Origin: Maylandia zebra
Taxonomy: Eukaryota; Chordata; Actinopteri; Cichliformes; Cichlidae
Assembly: GCF_041146795.1 (NCBI RefSeq)
Contig: NC_135177.1
Coordinates: forward strand, 22,914,560 to 22,978,559
Reading direction: 5' to 3'
DNA: 64,000 nt
The notes below the pieces were generated by a model. The model had not been told where the DNA came from, did not search any database, and worked only from the letters and a program-made list of their open reading frames with translations. The translations under genes were made by a program, and so were the position numbers. Within the stretch, counting starts at the first letter, position 1; each line of letters begins with the position of its first letter. Shown here piece after piece: positions 50,801-53,800 of this stretch.

Positions 50801-53800
50801 TGTTACTCTCCAAAATGCATTGTGTGTCTAACAATCATGTCGAGTCAGCTTCCTTCCTTATAAAACCATATGTTAGCTCCTGCATTGTTGACATCCAACT
50901 TCATGAGCTAGCACTCCTTTTCTTCTCCTTCTTCTTCTTCTTTTCTTTTTTTTCTTTCTTTATCTTCTTCTTCCCTGTTAATTGATATGATAAGACATAC
51001 CAGGTTTTCTGTAGGTGCAGTTAAGTTTATTGTATCTTAGCTCGGAGTGGGCTTCCTCTTTGAATCATTCTGAGCATTATTTCTTACCTTCCTTCCTGCA
51101 CTGGTTTTTCCTTCATTTTCTTTCGTCTGCACTGTCCTTCTCTCTTGCCTGCATGTTCAGATGGACGGCTCTAGGTCCTTAACAAGAGGCAGCACTATAG
51201 TGAACAGGGTGAGTTAACTCTGTCTTGCTGCCCTGTCCTTACTTTTGCTTTTCTCCTGCCCTGATTTCTGCCTAATGAACTCCAACTAACTCAAAGCAGA
51301 GTAACCTTAAACCATTGAACTGTCATGCTGATATTGTTGCTCATTAACAGTGAAGCCCTAGACAGTATATTCGATTTAGACTGTTTCTGTTCTTTTGTTT
51401 GTTGTTATGATTGTTGTCTTATTTGTCTTATTTGTCTTTTTATTGTTTGTTTGTTTATCCAATCCACATGTTTGTCCATCCACCCAATCTCCTCCCCCTT
51501 AAAACTTCATTTTTTTTCCACACACAATTCACCAGAGTATGCAATATGTGAGTATGAAATATTTAGAAAACTTGGGTTTTTATTTATGGGGAGTCCTTTT
51601 TTAAAAGTGAAACTCTTCCTGTAGAATATTTACAGGACCTGATATGATTGTCTTGCTTCATAGTGAGAATCATATCTTCCTTCTTTCTGACTTTCATCTG
51701 AATAACCCGTGGTCTTGTGGGTCTTTAGTTCTGGTAGTTAGTTCAGTCTCTACTGTTATACTCAGCGGGCAGGTGGTTGCAAAGTGTTTCTGCTGTAGAT
51801 GTGGTTTTAATAACACAAACTGAACATGATGCAATTGAATGATGTGGGAGCGGGTGTGTTGTTGCAGCTGTTTGTGTGTACAGCGTTTGAAGTGTACATA
51901 CTCAACTATATGGCTTTGTTAATGTGTGCAGTGCACACATTGTTTGCTCTGTGTTTTGTCGCTATCAAAGGGCTGGCCTCTTGCTCTCTCTGTGTGCGTC
52001 TGCCTTTTGTGTTGACTGACTGGCATTCTTTGATAGTTTTTGCCATAAAACCATCTCCTGTAACTACCTCCTTTGATGCTCATTGCTGGCTGCTGCTGCA
52101 TCGTCAGCTGCTGCATCGGCAGTGCGACAACTGCAATAATGCATTGCAGCGAGCTTGAATCAGCCAATATGTAGCTTCACATCTCGCTGTGTAACAGTGC
52201 TTCTCAACCAAGTCGATAGTAGCCCTTTATTGATTTTAAAAATCAATAAAAAGGTTTCAAAAAGGAAGTTATTAAACATATGAAAAGCAAATGTGCAACA
52301 TAATTGATCCCCTTATCACGGATTGCTAATGAGAGACAAGTATTTAAATTATGTTGAGAATCATTTGTTCTTGTGACGGGGAATGGGGAGTGTGTTGGAT
52401 GCTATATTGGGCCCTAAAATGCATCAGTATGTGTCACTGCTCTTCAAGACTGAGTCATGTATTTTTTTGTATTTTACATAACAGATCGTTAGTTCCTCTC
52501 AGCAGAGCAGTGTTAACGTGTGCATTTTAGTCTAGAGGCCACCATAGAAGTCTTTCTGTGAAGCTGTCATGTCTGTAGTTTTGTCTGATCAGACGTCTCC
52601 TCTGTTTCACAGGGTGAGCTGGAGAGACAGCTGCTGCAGGCCAACCCTATACTGGAGGCCTTCGGCAACGCAAAGACTGTCAAGAACGATAACTCCTCTA
52701 GATTTGTAAGAGTTGACTAGATTCATTAATCGGATAGATAAAGTTCTGCCGTCAGTATAAAAAGAAATGAACTGAAACATGAGCCACCTCTCCTGCTTTT
52801 TCAGGGTAAATTCATTCGTATCAATTTTGACGTGGCGGGATACATTGTTGGTGCCAACATTGAAACCTGTATCTTTCTGCTTACTTTGTGAAACTGCACT
52901 TCCTCCTGCCTTTACAGCAAAGGGGAGTGAGAAGGCAGACGGTCTTTCTGAATTTTTACTTGAATGCTTGCTTGTCCGTGTTCATTTGGAAAGCATTTAA
53001 GGGTTTACCTGTGTACCATACTAGAAACAACTTTAAAATGGTTGCACATATCCATAACTATATAAATTCAGACCTCCTTGAAAAGTCTCGGGCCACCCGT
53101 CAGGCCAAGGATGAGAGGACTTTCCACATCTTTTACCAGTTGTTATGTGGAGCGTCAGAGGAAACTCGAGGTGAATACAAGTGTCATTATAAAACATATA
53201 TGCTATTTTTGCAAAACCGACTAGTAAACTGTGTCTAAAACTTGCTGTATTTTATGTCTCTAGCGGACTTGCTCTTAGGAACTGCTGATCAGTATCGCTT
53301 TCTCAGTGGAGGCTCGATACCTGTTCCTGGTCAGAGCGATTCAGAGAATTTCACCCAGACTATGGACTCCATGGCTATTATGGGCTTCAACCCCGAGGAG
53401 TCGATGTGTAAGAGAACAGAGGCGGGGAAAAAAATTGGGTATTTTGTGTCTTCAATCCTTGCTATGAATCACCTTCCTCTTCCCTGTCTTACTTCTCTGC
53501 AGCCATGCTGAAGGTGATCTCTGCTGTGCTCCAGTTCGGGAATATATCCTTCATGAAGGAGAAGAACCATGACCAGGCGTCCATGCCTGATAACACAGCT
53601 GCTCAGAAACTCTGCCATCTGCTGGGCATCAATGTGCTGGAGTTCACTCGGGCCATCCTCACCCCAAGGATCAAAGTAGGCCGAGAGTATGTGCAGAAAG
53701 CCCAGACTAAAGAACAAGTAAGATCTTATATGCAAAAAAGGCACACATGCTCATACATAAACAAACATTTGTCCCTGTGGAGTGTGACTATACATACATT

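Follow-up and report, generated by a model that had tools for sequence, protein, structure and literature searches.

Two candidate serial cassette exons in loop 1 of a nonmuscle myosin II-C gene of Maylandia zebra

Gene content and identity of the locus

The window, that is, the whole stretch of 64,000 nucleotides of Maylandia zebra DNA analyzed here, contains a class II myosin heavy-chain gene. Our model of this gene comprises 20 exons around the two segments studied, encoding 895 amino acids free of stops. The intron of interest spans positions 50261-52612 (2,352 nt, phase 0, plus strand) and separates two constitutive exons. The first has a P-loop matching class II myosins in the PDB and ends in the codons GCT GTG CAG at 50260, followed by gtatgttac, and the second is directly preceded by cacag. 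The features of this region are as follows.

50146..50260, plus strand: constitutive P-loop exon with the 3' end GRKKEAVQ, phase 0 (translation and splice sites)
51150..51155, plus strand: TGCATG, an Rbfox-type hexamer at -11 to -6 of the 48-nt segment (sequence; putative role)
51161..51208, plus strand: candidate proximal optional exon of 48 nt, 16 residues (rank 1 of 111 phase-0 candidates, 10.6 bits)
51209..51281, plus strand: five MBNL-type YGCY motifs in the 73 nt following the 48-nt segment (density; putative role)
51510..51517, plus strand: T8 tract ahead of the 12-nt segment (sequence)
51536..51547, plus strand: candidate distal optional exon of 12 nt, SMQY (rank 5 of 111, 1.2 bits; sole YAY/gtgagt donor in the intron, the slash marking the exon end)
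52613..52705, plus strand: constitutive exon with the 5' end GELERQLL (translation and splice sites)

A preliminary description of this DNA had placed two phase-0 segments, at 51161-51208 and 51536-51547, between the exons ending in GRKKEAVQ and starting with GELERQLL, and we confirm the coordinates, frame, and splice dinucleotides that it gave. It had also assigned the gene to myosin II-C and the site to loop 1. Similarity of the motor domain proved a poor guide to orthology. The fish motor scored higher against MYH10 in the PDB (4pd3, 1,467.6 bits) than against MYH9 (9ihl, 1,401.9 bits) or MYH14 (5jlh, 1,368.7 bits), over 294 amino acids its identity to the human proteins was 86.4% for MYH10 and 78.6% for MYH14, and the tree built from this stretch did not resolve its placement (support, 37). 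We therefore dropped the motor and used the tail instead. There, 18 sites are shared with human MYH14 against MYH10 and MYH11; the corresponding counts are 4 for MYH10 and 6 for MYH11. The tail tree has a split uniting the fish gene with MYH14 (support, 98), which bears out the earlier assignment; this comparison used a provisional human MYH14 tail sequence and omitted MYH9.

A search of the same genome (962 Mb) with the P-loop exon recovered six further close genes, which we named from short stretches only: myh10a and myh10b (L032 and L033; GRKDHNIP as in MYH10), myh9a and myh9b (L034 and L037; KKDQ and DVNGY as in MYH9), and myh11a and myh11b (L035 and L036; YLAV.ASSHKGK as in MYH11). Because myh9, myh10, and myh11 thus each have two other genes in the genome, and given the tail split, we take the gene in the window as myh14; it is best read as encoding nonmuscle myosin II-C, as the orthologue of MYH14, with the segments at loop 1. 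Upstream of myh14, two pieces (33475-34602 and 35400-35879; Pfam IRK and IRK_C) make up a gene for an inward-rectifier potassium channel, probably kcnj14. In the human genome, KCNJ14 and MYH14 are both located at 19q13.33. The name "MYH14" in some papers denotes a different, sarcomeric gene that carries miR-499, as an excerpt of PMC3716903 indicates.

Other features of the window include a reverse transcriptase open frame at 57481-59358 (Pfam RVT_1, E = 3.4e-30), on the same strand as myh14 and inside its intron 57436-60876; a 389-codon open frame on the minus strand at 12383-13549 for a rhodopsin-type seven-transmembrane receptor (Pfam 7tm_1, E = 2.6e-40); and a DNA-transposase-like open frame at 24596-25399, with Pfam HTH_38 and DDE_3 matches under curated cut-offs.

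A 48-nt candidate exon with strong splice sites

We scanned the loop-1 intron of myh14 for phase-0 candidate exons of 6 to 150 nt with GT donors only (n = 111), scoring splice sites with generic frequencies as weights, not fitted to fish. The top-ranked 48-nt segment (acceptor ...tgcatgttcag; donor AGG/gtgagtta) is in phase 0 with an open frame and a length divisible by 3, and its score of 10.6 bits (4.2 from the acceptor and 6.4 from the donor) compares with 3.3 for the next independent candidate. A top score of at least 10.6 turned up in 7 of 300 Markov sequences. Of 45 control stretches, 1 attained it, and none held a candidate as strong as the segment at both sites. These controls are 2,352-nt stretches of raw window sequence, 27 from the minus strand and 18 from the part of the plus strand that precedes the coding exons, and may include real exons. 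Within the gene the 48-nt segment has only a small lead: a candidate in another myh14 intron, 49266-50145, scores 9.6 in the phase of that intron. The splice-site strength of the 48-nt segment is above chance, as would befit a loop-1 cassette, and by splice sites alone it is likely to be a real exon.

The 16-residue insert would carry a net charge of +2. Both this segment and the 12-nt one fall within the length limit for microexons, defined as 51 nt or less in an excerpt of PMC12064062. The ATG at the start of the 48-nt segment was considered as an alternative start and set aside, as a protein begun there would lose the P-loop. A search for a loop-2 cassette in the myh14 intron 55093-56551 gave a best candidate of only 2.7 bits and was likewise abandoned.

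A 12-nt candidate exon and a donor shared among paralogs

The 12-nt segment (acceptor ...aattcaccag; donor TAT/gtgagtat) is also in phase 0 with an open frame and a length divisible by 3, and its four residues, SMQY, have no net charge. Both segments sit between the P-loop exon and the GELE exon, the position of loop-1 cassettes, and all four combinations are in frame, so that loop 1 could be extended by 0, 4, 16, or 20 residues, just as had been proposed. The preliminary description credited both segments with good splice sites, which is borne out for the 48-nt segment, with its first rank among 111, whereas the sites of the 12-nt segment are unremarkable. Candidates of up to 30 nt that equal the latter at both sites occurred in 13 of 45 controls and in 74 of 300 Markov sequences, and judged by its splice sites the segment does not stand out from chance. 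Its donor had been called strong; at 2.6 it is only of middling strength within the range of -3.6 to 7.0 found for the 19 constitutive myh14 donors, because the exonic TAT is poor. The acceptor, at -1.3, equals the second lowest of the 19 in the gene. The T-rich tract said to precede the exon is present as the T8 at 51510-51517.

The loop-1 introns of the paralogs provide a broader frame. In both myh9 genes, 21-nt candidates ranked first: NNLVLSH in myh9a (10.7; 1 of 84; L034:1736-1756) and GSAVLSH in myh9b (15.4; 1 of 115; L037:1541-1561). The myh11 genes hold SM-B-like candidates, QQQAGSLAY in myh11b (6.6; rank 2 of 28) and QHAGSQLAY in myh11a (1.6; rank just 8 of 132), both placing LAY directly before GELE; several AGs lie ahead of these exons, so shorter forms are possible. 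In myh10a, an 18-nt candidate, SGPLFY, ranked 3 of 266 (6.6). BLAST further revealed a conserved 30-nt exon upstream in the loop-1 introns of myh10a (PESPKPVKLQ; reverse complement of L032, 1767-1796) and myh10b (PDSPKAFKLQ; reverse complement of L033, 2670-2699), with a GC donor, GCAAGT, to which the GT-only scan is blind. We regard it as the B1 exon, whose 30-nt length and neural use are given in an excerpt of PMC4557629.

Two other candidates ranked first in their introns, AQNAV in myh10a (10.8; reverse complement of L032, 1994-2008) and DSVAGAVAK in myh11b (9.7; reverse complement of L036, 1031-1057). They match no insert that we know of and are either as yet unknown exons or false positives. 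The cassettes of myh9a and myh9b align with each other across the exon, as do those of myh11a and myh11b; the myh10a 18-nt exon found no match in the compared myh10b stretch, and the flanks of the myh14 12-nt segment align to myh10a only out of register. Elsewhere in the gene, five paralog places match the myh14 exon 53503-53717 (215 nt) mostly only from residue 25-31 onward, as if an intron lay there.

In six of the seven nonmuscle and smooth-muscle myosin II loop-1 introns there is exactly one YAY/gtgagt donor with an in-frame AG 6 to 45 nt upstream, reading TAC/gtgagt in myh11a and myh11b and TAT/gtgagt in myh14. The loop-1 intron of myh10b has no such donor; at almost the myh10a offset in the intron (2397 versus 2389) it holds a gtgagtag donor preceded instead by AGA, with SQR as a 9-nt candidate in frame. 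After masking of the seven introns, both strands of 345,232 bases from the window and other retrieved DNA contain 9 YAY/gtgagt sites, a background rate that gives a chance expectation of 0.059 such donors in the myh14 intron. The chance of finding the donor in at least six of seven introns is 2.8e-7, a post hoc figure, the motif having been derived from these same introns. The myh14 12-nt exon had been nominated in the preliminary description independently of the motif, and the paralog pattern lends it support. The distal exons may be of common descent, an argument that uses position, phase, and donor, with flanks that are not alignable across the four gene types.

Candidate regulatory elements

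The elements that might control the two segments differ. The density of YGCY motifs after the 48-nt segment is reached in 0.45% of 6,393 window steps and in 3.5% of intron positions. Around the 12-nt segment, TGC and YGCY are absent from the 60 nt before it, and YGCY is absent from the 100 nt after it. In myh10a and myh10b, TGCATG lies 37 and 67 nt downstream of the 30-nt exons, which fits UGCAUG-driven inclusion of B1.

The splicing defects of DM1 stem from loss of MBNL, and YGCY downstream of an exon favors its inclusion. Uninserted II-C is increased in DM1 muscle (excerpt of PMC3535348) and in some FSHD muscle (excerpt of PMC10772042), and an excerpt of PMC13158602 states that UGCAUG drives B1 inclusion and that an upstream UGCAUG in Numb leads to skipping. 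The elements beside the 48-nt exon would fit a scheme in which MBNL promotes and Rbfox represses its inclusion. With UGCAUG upstream and YGCY downstream, a search for use of the 48-nt exon in neural libraries only could therefore mislead.

Interpretation of the two segments

The sequence, the frame, the splice sites, and the pattern across paralogs are observed here, and either segment would, we infer, be included in mRNA; both are probably real cassette exons. With moderate confidence, we favor a teleost myh14 loop-1 splicing module of two serial cassettes, in which the distal exon belongs to an old YAY/gtgagt family, the proximal exon encodes an unrelated peptide, and inclusion leads to faster ADP release. 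The SMQY exon would then represent, in myh14, an old cassette recognizable by a terminal TAY or CAY codon followed by gtgagt, with counterparts in myh11a and myh11b (the SM-B-like exons), myh10a (the 18-nt exon), and myh9a and myh9b (the 21-nt exons).

Inclusion would add 4, 16, or 20 residues to loop 1, the length of which is thought to tune the ADP-release rate of myosin II. The available excerpts of the kinetic literature associate a longer loop 1 with faster ADP release (a review, PMC11335295) and the 8-amino-acid insert of mammalian II-C with raised motility and ATPase (PMC10480317), and report no difference between human smooth-muscle forms that have the insert and those that lack it (PMC3938199). 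By analogy with the mammalian II-C insert, the fish inserts would most likely make ADP release and actin sliding faster, and the pair could form the combinatorial kinetic switch suggested in the preliminary description.

Some observations sit uneasily with the two-cassette module. The scan puts the unrecognized paralog candidates AQNAV and DSVAGAVAK high, the myh10a 18-nt exon third, and the SM-B-like exon of myh11a low; myh10b has no YAY/gtgagt donor; the motor is closer to MYH10 than to MYH14; and the human smooth-muscle insert is reported to have no effect. The abundance of chance sites like those of the 12-nt segment in controls and Markov sequences, together with its weak acceptor, its poor exonic donor bases, and flanks without similarity to the myh10a exon, would be expected if only the 48-nt segment were real and the other a chance AG...GT pair, leaving loop 1 with either 0 or 16 extra residues. 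This reading has some weight but is, in our view, unlikely: the 12-nt segment has the sole YAY/gtgagt donor of the intron, the pattern seen in five paralog introns.

The same paralog pattern favors the distal exon. The 48-nt segment might be a decoy, its peptide being by eye like no known insert and its score being attained by 7 of 300 Markov sequences, with the 12-nt exon alone in use as the fish equivalent of mammalian C1; but the 48-nt splice sites are far better (10.6 versus 1.2 bits), and we consider this improbable. About as improbable, in our judgment, is that both segments are decoys and the fish makes the uninserted loop 1 only. Single good candidates do arise by chance, as the one control stretch (of 45) and the seven Markov sequences (of 300) that reach the 48-nt score show, but both segments lie at the site of known myosin II loop-1 inserts, and a comparable distal exon is found in the same intron in six of the seven paralogs.

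Beyond the two-cassette module, we tentatively entertain, with somewhat less than even confidence, a history in which one ancestral loop-1 cassette predates the vertebrate MYH9/10/11/14 split and has been kept in nearly all of these fish genes, including myh9a and myh9b. The myh14 copy would have shrunk to 12 nt behind a myh14-specific 48-nt exon under MBNL/Rbfox-type control, giving lengths of 0, 4, 16, and 20. If the distal exons do share descent, loop-1 splicing would have arisen before the vertebrate duplications, and its supposed absence from NM-IIA would not apply to fish. A graded loop-1 series in one gene, beside the myh10 and myh9 series, would also make the effects of length and sequence separable with natural variants.

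Comparison with known loop-1 inserts

The closest precedent is NM-IIB. Mammalian B1b is assembled from two exons, of 30 and 18 nt. In myh10a of the present genome, a proximal 30-nt and a distal 18-nt exon likewise amount to 16 amino acids together, in the same serial layout as in myh14, and such inserts in series are a precedent for two optional loop-1 exons in myh14. The NM-IIB inserts, of 10 or 16 amino acids according to an excerpt of PMC10480317, are B1a and B1b of MYH10, which use the same junction before GELE and come in two lengths, like the myh14 pair. The 48-nt exon stands where myh10 has its 30-nt exon, but the NM-IIB and myh10 peptides are unrelated to those of myh14. A further difference is that the myh10 30-nt exon has a GC donor and a downstream TGCATG; in the myh14 48-nt exon, the donor is GT and TGCATG lies upstream.

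The peptide of human C1 presumably ends in Tyr, as SMQY does; a search for the mammalian C1 peptide in part of the literature gave no match. C1 of NM-IIC, the 8 amino acids of mammalian MYH14 exon 6, belongs to the same gene and the same loop (excerpts of PMC10772042 and PMC10480317), but it is a single 24-nt exon, whereas fish myh14 has two candidates, of 48 and 12 nt. The 7-amino-acid SM-B insert of MYH11 shares with SMQY a terminal Tyr before GELE: the human QGPSFAY has Tyr directly there (excerpt of PMC13102872), and PDB 6xe9 carries QGPSFSY before GELE, both of which the SM-B-like peptides of fish myh11a and myh11b resemble. An excerpt of PMC3938199 quotes QGPSFSF and EGPSFWR as other human SM-B inserts. 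SM-B is a single cassette, however, and the likeness of its peptide to SMQY ends at the last Tyr.

For MYH9, loop-1 splicing went undetected in mouse tissues according to an excerpt of PMC10480317, and an excerpt of a review lists an A1 form (PMC11335295). Among the matches listed in a partial literature, judged by titles and the starts of abstracts, we recognized no paper on fish myh14 loop-1 exons. Two optional loop-1 lengths as such were known already from NM-IIB (excerpt of PMC10480317). What appears to be new is the candidate loop-1 exon pair in II-C, its very short distal exon, and the loop-1 candidates in both fish myh9 genes.
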